Source: Flavobacteriaceae bacterium MAR_2010_72
GTDB lineage: Bacteria; Bacteroidota; Bacteroidia; Flavobacteriales; Flavobacteriaceae
Assembly (NCBI GenBank): GCA_003550275.1
Contig: QXCW01000002.1
Coordinates: 682,001-746,000 of the forward strand
DNA: 64,000 bases
Direction of reading: 5' to 3'
Positions within the stretch are counted from its first letter, which is position 1, and the number at the start of each line of letters is the position of its first letter. Below are positions 45,395 through 53,958 of this stretch, in pieces. Below the pieces are notes generated by a model. The model saw only the letters and a list, made by a program, of their open reading frames with translations, searched no databases and was not told where the DNA came from. A program made the position numbers and the translations under genes.

Positions 45395-46927
45395 TTAATG
45401 CTTAAAATGCCGTGTACCTGTGAATACCATCGCCACACCATTGTCATTACAGTAATCAATGCTCAACTGGTCTTTAATAGAGCCTCCCGGCTGAATTACC
45501 GCAGTGAGGCCCGCGTTTTTTGCGATTTCCACACAGTCAGGGAACGGAAAAAATGCATCACTTGCCATTACCGCACCATTTAAATCAAAATTGAATGATT
45601 GTGCTTTGTGAATGGCTTGGTTAAGTGCATCCACTCGACTTGTCTGGCCAGTTCCACTCGCACACAATTGTTTGTCCTTTACTAAAACGATCGTATTTGA
45701 TTTGGTATGCTTACAAATTTTAGAAGCAAATATTAAATCTTCTAACTCGTTTTGTGATGGTTTATTGTTTGTGGTATATGATAAATGTTCAATAGCGTCA
45801 GTAATAGTATCACGATCTTGAACCAAAACACCATTCAAGCAAGTTCTTACTGTAGTTTGAGAAAGTTCAGCATCTTTTAAAATTAGAAGAATACGGTTTT
45901 TTTTTCCAGTCAAAATATCTAAAGCTTCTTTAGAAAATGATGGAGCAATAACCACTTCGCAAAACAACCCATGGATCTCTTCAGCAGTTGCTTTATCAAT
46001 TTTTGTATTACTAATTAAAATACCTCCAAAAGCAGAAACAGGATCACCTTCCAAAGCATCTACATAAGCTTGGTGGATAGACGGTCTTTGCGCAAAGCCA
46101 CAAGCATTATTGTGCTTTAAAATAGCAAAAGTTGGAGCTTCATTTTTAAATTCATTGATCAAATTAACAGCTGCGTCAACATCGAGTAGATTATTATAGC
46201 TTAATTCCTTGCCATGAAGCTTGGTAAACATCGCATCAAAATCACCAAAGAAAAACCCTTTTTGATGAGGATTTTCGCCATAACGCAATACTTGACCTTT
46301 AGTCTCACTAATTTTTAAGGATGCAATGTCGTGATTAGCATTAAAATAATTAAAGATTGCTGAATCATAATGTGAAGACACGTTAAAGGCTTTTGCTGCA
46401 AAATGTTTTCTGTCAGCCTCGGTAGTTTCACCGTTTTTAGTCTTCAAGAGCTCTAAAAACTCTGAATAGTCATCAACCGATGACACGCATATAACATCTG
46501 CATAATTTTTTGCGGCTGCTCTAATCAAAGAGATGCCTCCAATATCTATTTTTTCAATAATATCTTGATGACTTGCCCCTGAAGCCACAGTTTTTTCAAA
46601 AGGATACAAATCCACTACAACCAAGTCAATTTGTGGAATATCAAAATCTTTAAGTTCGGCAACATCACTTTCGTTATGCTGTCTATTTAGAATACCACCA
46701 AAAACTTTTGGGTGTAAGGTTTTTACTCGACCTCCTAAAATGGAAGGATATGAAGTCACATCTTCTACAGGAATAACAGGAATTCCTAAATCCTTAATAA
46801 ATTTTTCAGTACCTCCTGTGGAGTAAATAGTTACCTTTTGTTTGTGTAATTCTTTAACAATTGGCTCTAATCCGTCCTTACTAAAAACTGAAATTAATGC
46901 CGATGTAATGGTTTTTGTAGTATTCAT
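45395..46927 (-). CDS. purH: Bifunctional AICAR transformylase / IMP cyclohydrolase
   Basis: About 510 residues performing the last two steps of IMP synthesis. The N-terminal MGS-like IMP cyclohydrolase domain contains STGGTEKFIKDLGI, PSILGGRVKTLHPKVFGGIL; the C-terminal AICARFT domain contains LRYGENPHQKGFFF, KHNNACGFA (Lys-His pair), and SDAFFPFPDCVE...QPGGSIKD. ATG 46927 is preferred; the in-frame TTG at 46954 is part of the TACTTTTG -7 box. Confidence 0.98.
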   Translation of the reverse strand: MNTTKTITSALISVFSKDGLEPIVKELHKQKVTIYSTGGTEKFIKDLGIPVIPVEDVTSYPSILGGRVKTLHPKVFGGILNRQHNESDVAELKDFDIPQIDLVVVDLYPFEKTVASGASHQDIIEKIDIGGISLIRAAAKNYADVICVSSVDDYSEFLELLKTKNGETTEADRKHFAAKAFNVSSHYDSAIFNYFNANHDIASLKISETKGQVLRYGENPHQKGFFFGDFDAMFTKLHGKELSYNNLLDVDAAVNLINEFKNEAPTFAILKHNNACGFAQRPSIHQAYVDALEGDPVSAFGGILISNTKIDKATAEEIHGLFCEVVIAPSFSKEALDILTGKKNRILLILKDAELSQTTVRTCLNGVLVQDRDTITDAIEHLSYTTNNKPSQNELEDLIFASKICKHTKSNTIVLVKDKQLCASGTGQTSRVDALNQAIHKAQSFNFDLNGAVMASDAFFPFPDCVEIAKNAGLTAVIQPGGSIKDQLSIDYCNDNGVAMVFTGTRHFKH

Positions 46928-46951
46928 TTTGAGGTTGTGTGTATTAAAGCG

Positions 46952-46959
46952 CAAAAGTA
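46952..46959 (-). promoter_or_regulatory. -7 box of purH
   Basis: Minus-strand TACTTTTG matches TAnnTTTG and is identical to the valS box. The predicted leader to ATG 46927 is about 20 bases. Confidence 0.5.
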
Positions 46960-47072
46960 CATATTATCCTATAAAATTTGGGTTATTCAATGTGTGTTTA
47001 TTTAAGAATTTTGTAACAATTAAGTGTTACAAACGTCCTATCTTTAAATTTGTATAAAACTACTGTCTATTC

Positions 47073-48323
47073 ATGCTTGTTTACTTACGCCTTTTCAAAG
47101 AAAGCTTCTCGTTTGCTCTTAATGCCTTGCGAAATAATAAACTCCGAACATTTTTATCATTACTGGGCGTGACTATTGGTATTTTTTCGATTATTGCGGT
47201 ATTGGCTGCTGTAGATTCTTTAGACAGAAACATTCAAGAGAATTTGTCGGGTTTAGATAAGAACACTATTTATTTGACTAAATTTTCCTTTGGACCGACT
47301 AATGTTCCAAGATGGCAACGCGATAACTATCCCCAAACAGATTATAGCGATTATGAGTTTGTAAGTAGAAATGTACCTGATATCATGGCATGCGCCTATA
47401 CTATTTTTGGAGGTGGAGAAACCATTAGATATCAAGCGGAAACCGTGGCAGGAGTAAATGTTACCCCAATTACGAACGAAATTTATAATATTAATGAGTT
47501 TGTTGTTGAACGAGGTCGTTTTTATACAGAATCGGAATCTGCTTCAGGTGCACCTGTAATTGTTTTGGGGTATTCGTTGGCCGAAAATTTATTCGGAAAT
47601 TTAAACCCATTAGGTAAACAGGTTAGAGTGTACGGTAGAAAACTAACAGTTATTGGAATATTAAAAAAGTATGGGGTTGGTATTTTTGACTCTCCAGACG
47701 AACAGGCTTTTGTACCTGCAAATTTTGTTAGACGGTTTAGAAGTGGAGGTTCAGATGGTATTCCTGGTGCTATAATTATTAGACCAAATAAAGGCATTGA
47801 TATTGGAGCCTTTGAGCAAGTATTAAAACAAAAATTTAGAAATTATAGGGGCTTAAAGGCGGGTGAGCCCGACAATTTTTTTGTAAACAAACTTTCTGGT
47901 ATGACCGATGCTATTGATGGTATTATTGGTACAATGAACGCATTTGGATGGGTTATTAGCGGATTTTCATTGCTAGTTGGCGGTTTTGGAATTGCCAATA
48001 TCATGTTCGTTAGTGTTAAGGAACGTACCAACCTTATTGGAATCCAAAAGTCACTTGGGGCTAAAAACCGATTCATTTTATTACAGTTTTTGTTTGAAGC
48101 CATAGTTCTAGCAGTTATTGGTGGTTTGGTAGGTTTAGCTCTCGTAGGAATTACGACTATGATCGCTTCAAATTTCACTGGGGATTTTGAATTTGTACTG
48201 TCCTTTTGGAATATGCTTCTCGGTTTTGGTCTTTCAACCTTAATCGGATTGATTTCGGGTGTAATTCCAGCCATTTCAGCTTCAAAACTCGATCCCGTAG
48301 AAGCTATTAGAACAGGAATGTAA
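47073..48323 (+). CDS. ABC transporter permease, MacB/FtsX type
   Basis: A 416-residue permease: cytosolic N-terminus, membrane helix 1 (FLSLLGVTIGIFSIIAVLAAV), a large MacB_PCD periplasmic domain (about 45-270), then three C-terminal helices forming the FtsX domain (GWVISGFSLLVGGFGIANIMFVSVKERTNLIG, ending in SASKLDPVEAIRTG). Type VII ABC exporters move lipoproteins, peptides or drugs. No ATPase gene is adjacent. Confidence 0.94.
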   Translation: MLVYLRLFKESFSFALNALRNNKLRTFLSLLGVTIGIFSIIAVLAAVDSLDRNIQENLSGLDKNTIYLTKFSFGPTNVPRWQRDNYPQTDYSDYEFVSRNVPDIMACAYTIFGGGETIRYQAETVAGVNVTPITNEIYNINEFVVERGRFYTESESASGAPVIVLGYSLAENLFGNLNPLGKQVRVYGRKLTVIGILKKYGVGIFDSPDEQAFVPANFVRRFRSGGSDGIPGAIIIRPNKGIDIGAFEQVLKQKFRNYRGLKAGEPDNFFVNKLSGMTDAIDGIIGTMNAFGWVISGFSLLVGGFGIANIMFVSVKERTNLIGIQKSLGAKNRFILLQFLFEAIVLAVIGGLVGLALVGITTMIASNFTGDFEFVLSFWNMLLGFGLSTLIGLISGVIPAISASKLDPVEAIRTGM

Positions 48324-48328
48324 ATTTA

Positions 48329-48784
48329 TTAGAGTAGTTCAGCGACCTTTTTACAAACAAATTCTAAAAATCGTTCATCTTCTTCGCTAAACGGATCAGG
48401 AGTGTTTGAGTCAATATCAATTTGGCCAATGTTTTCACCATTAACAAAAATGGGAATCACAATTTCCGCCTTCACTGTAATACTGCAGGCAATGTAATTA
48501 TCTTGAGCTGATACATCAGGAACCACGAAATTTTGGTTACTTACCGCAACCTGACCACAGATGCCTTTTCCAAACGGAATAATAGTATGGTCTGTTGGTT
48601 CGCCCACATAAGGCCCTAATTTGAGCTCATTTTTATCACCGTTTTTGAAATAAAACCCAACCCAATTATAATGTGGTACATTTGCTTCTAAAAGTTGACA
48701 AATAGTCAATAATCGGTCGTAAACTGTAAGTTTGCTGTTAGATATAATTGATGTAACCTGTGGCTTTAAATGCTCAAATGTCAT
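48329..48784 (-). CDS. GAF-domain protein, probable free methionine-(R)-sulfoxide reductase
   Basis: A 151-residue single GAF domain. WVGFYF, LGPYVGEPTDHTIIPFGKGICG, VPDVSAQDNYIACS and AEIVIPIF match the fRMsr family, with the catalytic-site Cys in GKGICG and in NYIACS. It would reduce free Met-R-sulfoxide, complementing the MsrA encoded at about 20 kb. ATG 48784 is used; an earlier in-frame start at 48826 would add 14 non-homologous residues. Confidence 0.88.
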   Translation of the reverse strand: MTFEHLKPQVTSIISNSKLTVYDRLLTICQLLEANVPHYNWVGFYFKNGDKNELKLGPYVGEPTDHTIIPFGKGICGQVAVSNQNFVVPDVSAQDNYIACSITVKAEIVIPIFVNGENIGQIDIDSNTPDPFSEEDERFLEFVCKKVAELL

Positions 48785-48870
48785 TAGCTTAAAAATTTTT
48801 GGTAAAAGTATTAAAAAGGCCTGCAATCAATACATTCAATTTACATAAATTTAACCTCATTAATAGAAGT

Positions 48871-49422
48871 TTGAAAACCCTTTTAAAAACATATAAGTCG
48901 GTCATTAAATTTATACTTACGTTTCTTTTGGCGTATTTATTGTTGTCCATTGGCTATAAGTTTTATTTGGATTTGTCACAGGGTTCTAAATATTACCCTG
49001 ATTATTTAACCCAACTTGTTGCGAAACAGTCAAAACAACTCATCAATGTTATTGGGTATAGTGCAGACATCCAAAATCACCCCAACGAAGCATCTATTAA
49101 GCTCATTATTCATGGTAAATATGTAGCAAGAGTTGTTGAAGGTTGTAATTCTATTAGTGTAATTATTTTATTTGTCTCATTTATGTTGGCTTTTGCAGGC
49201 CGTGCAAAGCCAACGGCATTGTTCATTTTTGCGGGAAGTGTTTTAATCTATGCTGTCAACTTAATCCGGATCGTTATTCTATCCATTGGACTATATCACT
49301 ATCCGTGGCGGAGAGAAATACTTCATACAGTTATTTTTCCTTTAATTATTTATGGATTGGTATTTATATTATGGATGATTTGGGTTAATCGTTTTTCTAA
49401 ACTTAAAAAGGAACATGGGTAA
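48871..49422 (+). CDS. xrtF: Exosortase family protein XrtF
   Basis: An integral membrane cysteine protease-transpeptidase of about 183 residues and five to six helices. The catalytic Cys is in VVEGCNSIS, Arg in VNLIRIVILS and His in EILHTVIFP, the exosortase triad. Start set at TTG 48871 (KTLLKTYKSVIKF), because the 24 residues encoded upstream from TTG 48799 look unlike the family. The next gene, overlapping by 8 bases, is its conserved partner. Its sorting targets are not in this window. Confidence 0.92.
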   Translation: MKTLLKTYKSVIKFILTFLLAYLLLSIGYKFYLDLSQGSKYYPDYLTQLVAKQSKQLINVIGYSADIQNHPNEASIKLIIHGKYVARVVEGCNSISVIILFVSFMLAFAGRAKPTALFIFAGSVLIYAVNLIRIVILSIGLYHYPWRREILHTVIFPLIIYGLVFILWMIWVNRFSKLKKEHG

Positions 49423-49843
49423 TTGGATAAAGCACATATTGCTTTTGGGCTTATTCGGGCTTCTGATTTTAATCAGGGTTTTTGAAAACGAATTGTTCTA
49501 CGATCCTTATTTGTTATTTTTTAAAAATGACTATCTATATATGGATTTCCCACGACGAGAAATTTTAAAACTCACGATTTTCACAACGTTACGATATGTT
49601 TTAAATGCATTGATATCACTAGGAATTATCTATCTGGTTTTTAAGGATCGATCAATAGTCCAGTTTTCTTCAATTGTGTACCTTGTGGCTTATATCATCC
49701 TTATTTTAATATTTCTCTATTTTGTCATTAACCCCCGACAGGAAGATTATTATCTCTTTTTTAATTTTAGACGATTTTTGATTCAACCAGTGATACTCTT
49801 ACTTTTATTGCCAGCCTTTTACTATTATAAACTTAAAAAATGA
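49415..49843 (+). CDS. Exosortase F system-associated protein
   Basis: A 142-residue membrane protein with four helices (LLLGLFGLLILIRV, TTLRYVLNALISLGIIYLVF, IVYLVAYIILILIFLYFV, LIQPVILLLLLPAFYYY). It is the conserved neighbour of XrtF in Flavobacteriia (the exosortase F system-associated protein family; assignment from family knowledge and overlap with xrtF). Function unknown. Confidence 0.9.
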   Translation: MGNWIKHILLLGLFGLLILIRVFENELFYDPYLLFFKNDYLYMDFPRREILKLTIFTTLRYVLNALISLGIIYLVFKDRSIVQFSSIVYLVAYIILILIFLYFVINPRQEDYYLFFNFRRFLIQPVILLLLLPAFYYYKLKK

Positions 49844-49889
49844 TTTGCTAAGGCTATTATAAAAAGTGATCTTAACATGACTTTTTTCT

Positions 49890-49897
49890 TATTTTTA
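49890..49897 (+). promoter_or_regulatory. -7-like box before the HYC_CC_PP gene
   Basis: TATTTTTA (one mismatch to TAnnTTTG) ends 4 bases before GTG 49902, the same spacing as at the first gene and tatA. Confidence 0.3.
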
Positions 49898-49901
49898 CCA
49901 C

Positions 49902-50315
49902 GTGATAAAACAAGTTTTACATAACATATTTTCAGTTTCGCTAGCAACCTTAGTGCTATTGTCTACCATGTCATTTACCATTGATAAGCATTTCTGTGGT
50001 GACGTATTAGTGGACTCGGCTGTGTTTGTTGAAGCCAAAAAATGTGCAATGGAAGCGTATGAAATTGAACAAGCTTTAATCACCAAAAAGTATTGCTGTA
50101 AGGACGAATTAGAAGTTGTTAAAGGTCAGGATAAACTAAAAAGAACGTCTTTTGAAGACTTGAAGTTTGATCAACAAGTAGTCGTCACAACGTTTGCATA
50201 CAATTACAATCTTTTTTTTGAAAGTTTACCTAAACAAGTAATTCCTCACAAAGATTATTCCCCACCCAATTTGGTCATCGATATTCATGTGTTGGACCAA
50301 GTATTCATCATTTAA
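49902..50315 (+). CDS. HYC_CC_PP-family protein
   Basis: A 137-residue exported or membrane-anchored protein with an N-terminal hydrophobic segment (IFSVSLATLVLLSTMSF). The family is named from its motifs, all seen here: His30-x-Cys32 (HFCG), vicinal Cys65-Cys66 (YCCKDE) and Pro121-Pro122, plus Cys48. The Cys/His set suggests copper or other soft-metal binding. It precedes a TonB receptor and an HMA protein and starts with GTG. Confidence 0.88.
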   Translation: MIKQVLHNIFSVSLATLVLLSTMSFTIDKHFCGDVLVDSAVFVEAKKCAMEAYEIEQALITKKYCCKDELEVVKGQDKLKRTSFEDLKFDQQVVVTTFAYNYNLFFESLPKQVIPHKDYSPPNLVIDIHVLDQVFII

Positions 50316-50409
50316 TTTTTTATTGTTTTAAAGAACTTTTGTGTGTTTTCGATATAGTGTTGTTGAAATGCGCTGAAAACGAATATTAATTTATATTCAC
50401 ATTAAACAA

Positions 50410-52647
50410 ATGAAAAATTTAATATATATACTGTTTATACTTCCTGTACTTACATTTTCACAAGACAAAATTAGTGGAATGATTATGGAAGCAAATGAAA
50501 AAAATGAGCATATTGGATTAGCTGGAGCCAATGTGTTTTGGTTAAATACTTCGGTTGGAACCGTAACGGATGTTGATGGAAAGTTTACTATTGACTATAA
50601 AAAAGAATACCAGAAACTGGTCATTAGCTATGTTGGATTCAAAACCGATACTTTAACCATAAGCGAACCTAAAATCATTCATCATTGGTTGCAACCAACG
50701 AGTGATCTTGATGAGGTAACTATAAATTCCCGAAAACAATCCACTTCAAAATCCTATTTACAATCGGCAAATATTTTAACCGTGAGTAGTGATGAGCTTC
50801 TAAAAGCAGCCTGTTGTAATTTGTCAGAAAGTTTTGAAACAAATCCGTCGATCGATGTTAATTTTGCTGATGCCGTTTCAGGAACCCGGCAAATAAAAAT
50901 GTTGGGCTTAACGAGTCCTTACATTTTGATTACTTCTGAAAATATTCCTACAATTCGAGGCGCTTCACAAGCTTATGGCCTGAGTTTTACACCTGGAACT
51001 TGGGTAGAAAGTATCCAGATCACCAAAGGTGCAGGAAGCGTGGTGAATGGCTTTGAGAGTATTGCCGGACAGATCAATACCGAAATGGTCAAACCATCTA
51101 CAGACGCGAAACTTTTTGTGAATGCCTATGGAGACGGCAGTGGAAGATATGAGCTGAACACGCATTTAAATACCAATCTAGATGATAAATGGAGTACAGG
51201 TTTATATCTGCATGGAAATATCAGAGACAAAAAATTTGATATGAATGATGACTCCTTCCTAGATGCACCTTTACAAAAACAAATTAATTTCATGAATCGT
51301 TGGCAATATACAAATGCAGAAAAAGGATTTGTGAGCTTTATCAATTTCAGGTATTTAAATGATGAAAAACAAACTGGCCAAATGGCCTTTGATCCAGATA
51401 CTGATAAAGGGACTACTAATGCCTGGGGAAGTGAGATCGATACTGAACGCTTTGATATTTCGGTAAAAACTGGATTTGTTAATCCTGAAATTCCTTGGCG
51501 AAGTTTAGGTGTTCAGGCTGCCTTTAGCAGACATGAACAAGAATCGTATTTTGGATTAAATGAGTACGATATTTTACACAATAGCTTATACGCCAATGCA
51601 ATTTATAATTCTATCATTAGCGACTCTAGGCACAAGGTAAAAACAGGATTAAGTTATACTTACGATCACTACGATGAGTTTGTTGAAGCTTCGGAATTTG
51701 AGCGTACTGAAAATTCTGTTGGAGCATTTTTTGAGTACAATTTTGATAATTTAGAAAAACTGAACCTAACTGCAGGTATTCGAATAGATCGACATAATTT
51801 GTTAGGAACTTTTGTAACGCCGAGATTCCATGCACGGTATTCACCATGGGAAAAATCGGCTTTGCGATTTTCATTTGGCCGAGGAAAGCGAAGTGCCAAT
51901 ATCTTTGCTGAAAATCAATCCATTTTTTCAAGTTCTAGAAGTCTTAATATAGTGAGTTCTGGTGGAGAGATTTATGGATTGGATCCAGAAATAGCTTGGA
52001 ATTATGGCGTGTCGTTTTTACAAGGGTTTAATCTTTTTGGCAGAAAAGCCGACCTAACCTTTGATTTTTATAGAACTGATTTTCAAAATCAAGTAGTTGT
52101 TGATTATGAAAATCCGCTAGAAGTTAGTTTTTATAACCTCGAAGGCGATAGCTACGCTAATAGTTTACAGTTAGAGTTTAACTACAACGTATTTGAACGT
52201 TTTGATCTGCGTACAGCTTATAAGTTTTACGACGTGAAAACGCAATATAATTCAGGTAAGTTGGAAAAACCTTTAACGCCACGGCATCGCGTATTTGCAA
52301 ACGCGTCTTATGAAACTCAAGAAACAAAGAAAAAAGGATTATGGAAATTTGATATGACCTATAATTGGTTAGGTGAGCAGCGTTTTTCGTCAACGGCATC
52401 TAATCCAACCCAATATCAATTACCTGAATATTCGCCAACGGTTGCAACCTTAAATGCGCAAGTAACAAAAGTATTTTCTGATAAATTTGAAGTATATTTA
52501 GGTGGTGAAAACATTACCAATGTTAGTCAAAATAATCCAATTTTGAGTGCAAACGATCCTTTTGGAGCAAATTTTGACACCACTTTCGTATATGGTCCAA
52601 TTTTTGGAAGTATGTATTACGCAGGATTAAGATTTAAAATTAAATAA
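50410..52647 (+). CDS. TonB-dependent receptor, probable metal uptake
   Basis: A 745-residue outer-membrane receptor: signal peptide (to FSQ18), CarboxypepD_reg-like domain (about 20-95, GANVFWLNTSVGTVTDVDG), plug domain (about 105-230) and a 22-strand-type barrel ending in the aromatic YAGLRFKIK. The plug starts with a vicinal Cys pair, Cys135-Cys136 (LKAACCNLSE), unusual for iron-siderophore receptors. Between an HYC_CC_PP gene and an HMA gene, copper or a Cu-peptide is the best guess for its substrate (inference). Confidence 0.92.
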   Translation: MKNLIYILFILPVLTFSQDKISGMIMEANEKNEHIGLAGANVFWLNTSVGTVTDVDGKFTIDYKKEYQKLVISYVGFKTDTLTISEPKIIHHWLQPTSDLDEVTINSRKQSTSKSYLQSANILTVSSDELLKAACCNLSESFETNPSIDVNFADAVSGTRQIKMLGLTSPYILITSENIPTIRGASQAYGLSFTPGTWVESIQITKGAGSVVNGFESIAGQINTEMVKPSTDAKLFVNAYGDGSGRYELNTHLNTNLDDKWSTGLYLHGNIRDKKFDMNDDSFLDAPLQKQINFMNRWQYTNAEKGFVSFINFRYLNDEKQTGQMAFDPDTDKGTTNAWGSEIDTERFDISVKTGFVNPEIPWRSLGVQAAFSRHEQESYFGLNEYDILHNSLYANAIYNSIISDSRHKVKTGLSYTYDHYDEFVEASEFERTENSVGAFFEYNFDNLEKLNLTAGIRIDRHNLLGTFVTPRFHARYSPWEKSALRFSFGRGKRSANIFAENQSIFSSSRSLNIVSSGGEIYGLDPEIAWNYGVSFLQGFNLFGRKADLTFDFYRTDFQNQVVVDYENPLEVSFYNLEGDSYANSLQLEFNYNVFERFDLRTAYKFYDVKTQYNSGKLEKPLTPRHRVFANASYETQETKKKGLWKFDMTYNWLGEQRFSSTASNPTQYQLPEYSPTVATLNAQVTKVFSDKFEVYLGGENITNVSQNNPILSANDPFGANFDTTFVYGPIFGSMYYAGLRFKIK

Positions 52648-52659
52648 AGATATAAAGCA

Positions 52660-53013
52660 ATGAAAAAAATAGTATTATTAATAGCCATATTAACAACATC
52701 GTTTGTTTGGGCTCAAGACAAAAATGCAAAAGCGACTATAGAAGTTGACGGTATTTGTATGATGTGTAAAGTTAGAATTGAGAAGGCTAGCATCAAAACC
52801 AAAGGTGTTAAATCTGCCATATGGGATGTTGAAACCCATGAATTGAAACTGATTTTTGATGAAAGAAAAACCAATCTCAAAGCCATAAAGAAAAACATTG
52901 CCGCAGTTGGTCATGACACCAAAGATATTAAAGCCACAAAAGAGGCTTATGATAGTTTAGATCCTTGTTGTAAGTATAAGGATGAAGATGTGGTCAACGA
53001 TCATAAAAATTAA
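52660..53013 (+). CDS. Periplasmic heavy-metal-associated (HMA) domain protein
   Basis: A 117-residue exported protein with a signal peptide (IVLLIAILTTSFVWAQ) and one HMA domain of the copper-chaperone ferredoxin-like fold. The metal motif is GICMMC (Cys33, Cys36) in the first loop. A second pair, Cys103-Cys104 (DPCCKY), lies in the tail. It follows the TonB receptor by 12 bases and would receive metal in the periplasm. Confidence 0.93.
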   Translation: MKKIVLLIAILTTSFVWAQDKNAKATIEVDGICMMCKVRIEKASIKTKGVKSAIWDVETHELKLIFDERKTNLKAIKKNIAAVGHDTKDIKATKEAYDSLDPCCKYKDEDVVNDHKN

Positions 53014-53020
53014 TTACTAA

Positions 53021-53047
53021 AAAGCACCTTATCCAAGGTGCTTTTTT
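53021..53047 (+). terminator. Terminator of the copper locus
   Basis: GCACCTT / AAGGTGC stem (53024-53030 with 53035-53041), ATCC loop, six T following; eight bases after the HMA stop codon. Confidence 0.85.
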
Positions 53048-53184
53048 CGTTTTCTATACGGTTGATTTTGAGCTCTTGTTATGTAACCGTTAACAAAGTG
53101 GTCTGTTTTTGTTAATATATATCATCATCCAAATAGGATTTAAAAACATAAAAAGCTGTATTTTCGTTTTCCTAAATTTTATTT

Positions 53185-53958
53185 ATGACAGTGACGGAGT
53201 TCGAACCTATTATCGAAGTGATTGAAGAGGCTTATGAAGTGCCACATCTAAATGCGACCCGAAAAATTTCAGCATTACTACCTTACGACTATTATCAAAC
53301 CGAAAAGCGATATCCTGTTTTATATCTTCAAGACGGGCAAAACTTATTCAATCCATTGGCGCCTTATGGCGATTGGGCGATTGACAAGTCAATGGCAACC
53401 TTGTCTGAACAAGGCTTAAGCGATATCATTATTATTGCTATTGACCATGGAGAGAACGAACGAATCGTAGAATATCTACCTTATTATCATCCTCGTTTTG
53501 GTGAAGGAAAAGGGAATTTTTATATTCAGTTTATGATTGAAAAATTAATTCCTTACATTAATAATCAGTACCGTACCTTAACCGATTTTGAAAATACAGG
53601 AATTGGCGGAAGTTCAATGGGTGGTTTGATCAGTTTGCATGCGGGTCTGGCAAACCCAGGTGTGTTTGGAAAAATGATGATTTTTTCACCTAGTTTATGG
53701 ATTTCAAAAACTATTTTCAACCATACCAAGTCCTTTAAACCGCTACAGGAATCAAAAATTTATCTGTATGCAGGTGGACAGGAAAGTAAAGAGCATTTAC
53801 CCAACGCACAAAAGCTTGAGGCTATTATCAGGAAAAAAATGGTCAAAGGCCACAATATTGACTTTCATTTTTCAATAAATGAATTGGGCAACCATTCTGA
53901 AGTGCATTGGAGAGAAGAATTTCCAAAAGCCGTAAAATGGCTTTTTTTTAATAAATAA
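53185..53958 (+). CDS. Alpha/beta-hydrolase-fold esterase (EstA/D-like)
   Basis: A 257-residue esterase of the Esterase_phd/enterochelin-esterase-like type. The core is YPVLYLQDGQNLFNPL, the nucleophile Ser in GIGGSSMGGLIS, an acid site late (YLYAGGQES) and His in NELGNHSEVHW. No signal peptide, so cytoplasmic. It precedes an M17 aminopeptidase by 3 bases and an ATP-grasp gene, so it probably hydrolyses a ligase product or an ester intermediate of the same pathway (inference). Confidence 0.9.
   Translation: MTVTEFEPIIEVIEEAYEVPHLNATRKISALLPYDYYQTEKRYPVLYLQDGQNLFNPLAPYGDWAIDKSMATLSEQGLSDIIIIAIDHGENERIVEYLPYYHPRFGEGKGNFYIQFMIEKLIPYINNQYRTLTDFENTGIGGSSMGGLISLHAGLANPGVFGKMMIFSPSLWISKTIFNHTKSFKPLQESKIYLYAGGQESKEHLPNAQKLEAIIRKKMVKGHNIDFHFSINELGNHSEVHWREEFPKAVKWLFFNK

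Follow-up and report, generated by a model that had tools for sequence, protein, structure and literature searches.

A putative copper-uptake operon in Flavobacteriaceae bacterium MAR_2010_72 with conserved vicinal cysteines and a stop-codon-anchored hairpin

Why should three adjacent genes each encode a protein with a pair of neighbouring cysteines? The question is raised by a locus of Flavobacteriaceae bacterium MAR_2010_72, located in a stretch of 64,000 nucleotides (contig QXCW01000002.1, positions 682,001 to 746,000; hereafter the window) that is part of a two-contig genome. The locus encodes a small protein of the HYC_CC_PP family (hereafter HYC), a TonB-dependent receptor and an exported HMA-domain protein (Table 1). 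A first-pass annotation had taken the three Cys-Cys (CC) pairs for a relay that passes Cu(I) or another soft metal from the surface to the periplasm. We propose, with confidence somewhat better than even and from sequence comparison, that the locus is a copper-uptake operon in which HYC would act as a nascent-chain sensor leader, the receptor as importer and the HMA protein as periplasmic carrier.

Both the coordinates and the residues of the three pairs agree with the first-pass annotation, as does the presence of HFC in HYC and CMMC in the HMA protein. HYC has cysteines at 32, 48, 65 and 66, the receptor at 135 and 136, and the HMA protein at 33, 36, 103 and 104. HYC matches NF047658 (HYC_CC_PP) with an E-value of 1.2e-35 and 122.8 bits (curated cut-off 28), and the HMA protein matches PF00403 with 28.3 bits (cut-off 24.8), its CxxC being present as CMMC. 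In Pfam terms the receptor consists of a CarboxypepD_reg-like N-terminal domain (residues 21-104), a plug (120-220) and a barrel (285-702). Among 60 non-overlapping open reading frames (ORFs) of at least 100 amino acids (aa) in the window, three contain a CC pair, namely these three neighbours. About 1.9 would be expected in total from composition, so the number is ordinary but the clustering is unusual. CC occurred in 16 of 858 control ORFs from the flanks of 80 named loci, and in 8 of 680 within conserved gene clusters.

Relatives of the receptor were sought with a query starting after the plug CC, and the pair therefore could not help to find them. It was present in all 29 loci of the first set and in 58 of 60 loci across the phylum. 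Of the named loci, which are of Flavobacteriaceae type, two are truncated and all 78 that reach this position have it; the named set (L072-L151) represents the best 80 of 571 confirmed relatives, and loci L043-L071 have flanks of only 1.5 kb. The pair sits in KAACCNLSESFETNPS-like sequence and is kept down to about 31% identity, and the two phylum-wide loci that lack it, L209 and L210, come from a different receptor subfamily, at about 28% identity. Judged by eye, none of the 14 other receptors of the same genome with an alignable plug carries the pair (20 stretches fetched). By row count the subfamily occurs in about 105 of 395 Bacteroidota genomes, 88 of which, the window's included, were read; the closest named relative in the scan is from Aquaticitalea lipolytica (87% identical). 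One relative (G289:C2:78915-80712) lies in two pieces with an in-frame TAA and may be a decayed copy.

The other two pairs recur in relatives as well. CC is found somewhere in 146 of 147 linked HYC matches, preceded by HxC in 129 of the 143 longer proteins, and a crude position rule detects CxxC together with CC in 133 of 144 linked HMA ORFs. These matches come from purpose-built HYC and HMA profiles with low thresholds (15 and 36 bits), and the HMA matches include two CopA-type ATPases. C103, C104 and Y106 of the HMA protein are invariant in alignment A4 (33 rows: the window and 32 relatives). Alignments A2 (33 rows), A3 (41) and A4 hold part of the eligible rows, selected for CCNLSE, HxC and CxxC, respectively, so that the invariance of CC in A2, HxC in A3 and CxxC in A4 is no evidence; the counts for the plug and HYC pairs given above do not depend on these alignments. 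Judging from these loci, the CC pairs are conserved along with the gene neighbourhood across the phylum, and the check proposed with the relay, conservation of the pairs where gene order is shared, did not refute it.

An HYC match was found in 147 of 170 receptor loci (two outgroup loci included), upstream and on the same strand in all 147. In 122 of the 170 the HMA gene follows downstream, two of these at a distance of over 4 kb; 19 loci have it upstream, 9 have it fused to the receptor, and in 20 it was not found. Fused receptors carry the HMA module, with CxxC and CC tail, in one or two copies N-terminal to the plug. Since the CC pairs are conserved and these fusions tie the HMA module to the receptor, a hand-over of a soft metal, most likely copper, from plug to HMA protein is plausible, and this part of the relay idea stands; the fusions are the best evidence for such a two-protein transfer from the plug CC to the CxxC and CC tail. 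In five loci of family f2 (L153, L154, L157, L158 and L159) no HYC was found. At its position they encode a Cys-rich small protein (L154:4612-5019, for example) without detectable similarity to HYC, one copy having been checked against Pfam and NCBIfam, whose C-terminus is IWQPPK plus two residues (IWQPPK[IL][GA]). The receptors of these loci have two N-terminal CC tails, except for that of L157, which has one.

The place given to HYC as a station of the relay fared less well. From its end there are 94 nucleotides (nt) to the receptor start, and in the 72 cases where HYC does not directly precede a receptor the next gene is like HMA-MauE (30), CusA (20, one locus being included twice), HMA (15), CopA (3) or none of these (4). 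A second HYC copy of the same genome heads a gene set for an ACR_tran pump (CusA type), an OEP protein, an HMA-MauE protein and a CusB-type adaptor with HMBD. That efflux locus also encodes an HMA protein (L033:18349-18789) with CxxC whose tail, GCCQY, resembles that of the window HMA protein. The HYC C-terminus is conserved: 137 of 178 proteins end in Ile, and 15 residues follow the PP in 93 and 12-16 in 149. At E 0.01 no Pfam family matches the window HYC, hence no DUF2946, and its model has a predicted N-terminal hydrophobic helix (residues 2-22) and is not a confident globular fold (predicted local distance difference test, pLDDT, 71; predicted template modelling score, pTM, 0.38). HYC is thus probably not a relay station; a cis-acting copper-sensing leader fits better because of the upstream position, the C-terminal tail and the stop-codon-anchored hairpin described below, and because HYC heads an efflux locus too.

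Stop-to-start pairing was compared between HYC and other tandem gene pairs 30-200 nt apart by counting how many base pairs the 14 nt that begin with the stop codon form with the surroundings of the next start, with the first ATG of each ORF as gene start. At least six pairs were predicted in 122 of 163 HYC stretches versus 52 of 269 control stretches. The count was 70/91 before receptors and 52/72 before other genes, with about 20% for their own shuffles, and the controls comprised other gene pairs (40/200, these 200 being folded out of 468), receptor-HMA (9/58) and receptor-other (3/11) stretches. When similar sequences were collapsed, 68 of 98 HYC stretches and 37 of 201 controls had such stems. 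One locus, L002 and L033 alike, was counted twice in the stem count, and Fisher P-values are not relied on, as they presume an independence that is absent among related genomes. By source, the named set had stems in 31 of 41 and 22 of 29 stretches; in the phylum-wide set, 13 of 21 HYC-receptor stretches had them.

The geometry of these stems is specific. Of the 122, 88 begin to pair at the first base of the stop codon, and in 107 the partner of the first paired base is located 3-14 nt ahead of the next start. The window stem extends over the start codon and so belongs to the less common kind. Arms from the same locus pair with -9.2 and -9.1 kcal/mol versus -4.7 and -5.0 kcal/mol for arms swapped between loci, and the difference is small for controls (-5.1 versus -4.6) and receptor-HMA stretches (-5.7 versus -4.4). 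Mean folding z-scores were -2.98 and -2.83 for HYC stretches versus -1.29 and -1.83 for controls; the hairpin of the efflux-locus HYC copy reached -3.45. Compensatory changes were found in two of three alignments. In A5 (efflux) they affect 8 of 27 pairs, and five of five measures lie above 500 shuffles; in A7 (receptor) they affect 5 of 20 pairs, and of the five measures three exceed every shuffle whereas two do not. The consensus structures of A5 and A7 were predicted from these same alignments. A search of window positions 46900-53300 against Rfam gave nothing over the gathering score, with one match at E 0.93.

Taken together, the locus might work as follows. HYC, a small and presumably exported protein, would serve as leader, and copper bound at its His/Cys site (HxC, C48 and CC) during synthesis and export would alter ribosome behaviour at the C-terminal end, that is, at PP and the 15 residues before the stop. 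The hairpin from the HYC stop codon would close near or over the next start; a ribosome paused at the HYC end would unfold it, so that the receptor could be translated. As the hairpin begins at the stop codon, we infer that the ribosome would be held at the very end of HYC and not at PP. What the receptor imports would be copper or one of its complexes, the plug CC being a candidate metal ligand en route, and the exported HMA protein, with its CxxC and CC tail, could accept the copper on the periplasmic side. A broader version makes HYC_CC_PP proteins Bacteroidota-wide termination-arrest sensors with an HxC/C/CC site and a hold at the stop codon, their uptake and efflux paralogues responding with opposite sign; we offer it tentatively and lean against it.

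Copper is the most likely substrate to judge by the genes around HYC and the receptor. Related loci have, among the neighbouring genes, those for CPC-containing P-type ATPases (six loci) and DUF326 proteins (eight loci), as well as for HMA-MauE and HMBD proteins; we take CPC in ATPases and DUF326 to be copper markers. Together with the CusA-type neighbours they make copper the best guess. The HMA protein itself scores 34.1 bits against MerP (TIGR02052), far below the cut-off of 92.55, and 32 bits against CopZ in NCBIfam, also below cut-off. Heme-copper oxidases were considered as the destination of the metal. This test has little power, because COX1 (PF00115) was matched in 378 of 395 genomes, and a strict link was rejected: the receptor is kept in three genomes (G380, G489 and G493) with no COX1 match and thus does not serve these oxidases alone. 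In these genomes the copper of the receptor subfamily may serve other enzymes.

Several known systems resemble the locus in part. The MerP-MerT-MerA system, in which MerT has a vicinal Cys pair, differs from it in serving inner-membrane uptake for detoxification and in having no TonB receptor. It is alike in its periplasmic HMA-type CxxC carrier and in the use of vicinal cysteines in soft-metal handling (MerA: PMC3466566); this and the following comparisons draw on parts of the cited papers. The nascent chain of CutF from Rhodobacter capsulatus senses periplasmic copper and opens a hairpin before the next gene (PMC9973294), and CruR from Bordetella pertussis is a copper-sensing upstream ORF of a copper receptor (PMC9426467); the two have opposite signs of copper effect (PMC9973294, PMC9426467). 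Like CutF, HYC is a small, presumably exported Cys protein that heads a putative copper operon, with PP near its C-terminus and a predicted hairpin to the next start, and at 137 aa and 94 nt it falls within the filters used for CutF-like proteins (<150 aa; next gene on the same strand at <=1000 nt). A further filter asks for an N-terminal signal peptide, where the HYC model shows the helix at residues 2-22. The published CutF-like proteins comprise some from Bacteroidota, and the genes listed downstream of them are in part of TonB type and CusA type (PMC9973294). The window HYC differs from CutF as described there in that it has neither CxxxC nor DUF2946, has 15 residues past PP and has its hairpin starting in the stop codon. 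The f2 small protein shares with the CutF-like outline a PP within the last 15 residues (PMC9973294). For Bacteroidota, the parts of that paper at hand report the lengths of intergenic stretches and contain no survey of hairpins; its supplement may contain HYC proteins.

CruR and CrtA share the gene arrangement, with a copper-sensing upstream ORF right before a TonB-dependent copper receptor (PMC9426467). CruR is, however, described with CXXC, RAPP and Rho termination (PMC9426467), whereas the window HYC has no CXXC; CrtA is described as having no conserved Cys, unlike the window receptor subfamily with its CC, invariant in the members read, and crtA is followed by PepSY_TM-type genes in >75% of loci and not by HMA genes (PMC12914433). 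OprC from Pseudomonas aeruginosa is likewise a TonB-dependent receptor with a plug cysteine, which in OprC binds copper, but its motif is CxxxM-HxM (PMC8610252), and the window receptor has no CxxxM, only the adjacent Cys pair followed by NLSES. It was for the CxxxM-HxM motif that a Bizionia receptor was likened to OprC (PMC11213822). Since CutF, CruR, OprC and CrtA each have one or more defining features that the locus lacks, we regard the locus as a variant that would work like these known systems. HYC_CC_PP is a known, curated family whose name records HYC, CC and PP; the invariant plug CC, the HMA-receptor fusions and the stop-codon-anchored hairpin appear to be new, and an open-licence literature search gave no paper naming HYC_CC_PP and none on this receptor family. 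If the proposal is true, the locus provides a system for copper uptake that is open to genetics and in which receptor and carrier are naturally fused in some relatives, and copper sensing by nascent chains, with a specific RNA anatomy, would extend across Bacteroidota. It also raises the questions of whether plug cysteines transfer copper to an HMA carrier, and whether one leader design can switch uptake and efflux oppositely.

Vicinal cysteines can form disulfides in the periplasm. The plug CC could be structural or redox-active (a vicinal disulfide or a redox-gated plug) and no copper ligand, the receptor importing a metal complex or another ligand. That a copper receptor, CrtA, is described with no conserved Cys (PMC12914433) speaks for this, as does a pair that cannot be placed in the model; yet the pair comprises the sole cysteines of the window receptor, is invariant in the subfamily members read and has an HMA partner, at times fused to the receptor, that also carries a CC tail. 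We think this explanation unlikely, if not strongly so. We have about the same degree of doubt about the hairpin being an intrinsic terminator or RNA-stability element that divides HYC from the downstream genes and has no part in copper sensing. T runs do follow some hairpins before the start, the control intergenic stretches are structured as well, and CruR acts by termination (PMC9426467). Against this reading stands the position of the stems with at least six pairs: the 5' arm begins at the first stop-codon base in 88 of 122, and its partner is 3-14 nt ahead of the start in 107.

A three-protein relay would make HYC a membrane-anchored periplasmic Cu(I) chaperone acting in trans between receptor and HMA protein, with copper handed on by the CC pairs of all three. 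In favour of it are the four cysteines kept in relatives, the hydrophobic N-terminal helix and the co-location with receptor and HMA gene; against it are the invariable upstream position of HYC (147/147), its occurrence ahead of efflux genes, its conserved end (Ile in 137/178, PP plus 15 residues in 93/178), the reach of the hairpin from its stop codon to the next gene and the low-confidence fold of its model. We rate this relay as rather unlikely. Another soft metal (Zn, Ag, Hg or As) in place of copper seems quite improbable: in NCBIfam the HMA protein has MerP (34 bits) as well as CopZ (32) among its top matches, both below cut-off, and a vicinal Cys pair is a signature of mercuric reductase (PMC3466566), but CPC ATPases, DUF326 proteins and CusA-type genes accompany HYC or the receptor, though no search for mer genes was made.

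A number of observations weigh against the proposed copper-uptake operon with its sensor leader. The window hairpin is only modestly stable on its own (minimum free energy -19.8 kcal/mol, z -1.84, with 8 of 200 shuffles as good), and overall folding is a weaker discriminator because the controls, too, are more stable than their shuffles. Alignment A6, of ten close loci with a near-invariant outer stem, showed no useful covariation (1 of 12 pairs, covariation term +0.3). Phylum-wide, stems between HYC and genes other than the receptor are rare (4/15), and only two of the five f2 leader hairpins reach six pairs. PP is missing from the last 40 residues of 19 of 178 HYC proteins, and 10 of the 147 HYC matches are weak (17-29 bits), none of the nine checked reaching the NF047658 cut-off. 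As one hairpin precedes both uptake and efflux genes, either the sign of the copper effect differs or one assignment is wrong. Retention of the receptor in the three genomes with no COX1 match is a further observation on this side, and the plug CC is not placed by AlphaFold, with pLDDT <50 over receptor residues 133-230. Among solved structures, a single-sequence search with the receptor found no relatives at 1e-5; a profile search found five at 0.01, three being SusC/RagA or TonB-receptor N-terminal stretches and two colicin I receptors over a short barrel stretch.

Table 1. Features of the locus, in window coordinates.
Feature	Position	Strand	Support
HYC, small and presumably exported protein of 137 aa (GTG start); proposed nascent-chain copper sensor and leader	49902..50315	+	NF047658
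HYC His30-Phe-Cys32 motif	49989..49997	+	own sequence, relatives
HYC Cys65-Cys66	50094..50099	+	own sequence, relatives
HYC Pro121-Pro122, then 15 residues up to the stop	50262..50267	+	own sequence, relatives
Predicted RNA hairpin	50314..50419	+	folding; like architecture in relatives
Hairpin 5' arm, starting in the HYC stop codon	50314-50328	+	
Hairpin 3' arm, over the receptor start codon	50404-50419	+	
TonB-dependent receptor, 745 aa	50410..52647	+	PF13715, PF07715 and PF00593 over cut-off
Plug Cys135-Cys136, sole cysteines of the receptor	50812..50817	+	own sequence, relatives
Exported HMA-domain protein, 117 aa	52660..53013	+	PF00403; adjoins or fused to receptor in most relatives read
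HMA protein CMMC motif (33-36)	52756..52767	+	
HMA protein tail Cys103-Cys104 (CCxY tail)	52966..52971	+	alignment A4

Window positions 48865-49843, directly upstream of HYC, encode XrtF, an exosortase (TIGR04128), together with the membrane protein associated with it (TIGR04127). Of the 80 named loci, 57 have upstream, on the same strand, a member of a gene cluster with an XrtF-like representative, and 58 a member of one whose representative is like the associated protein.

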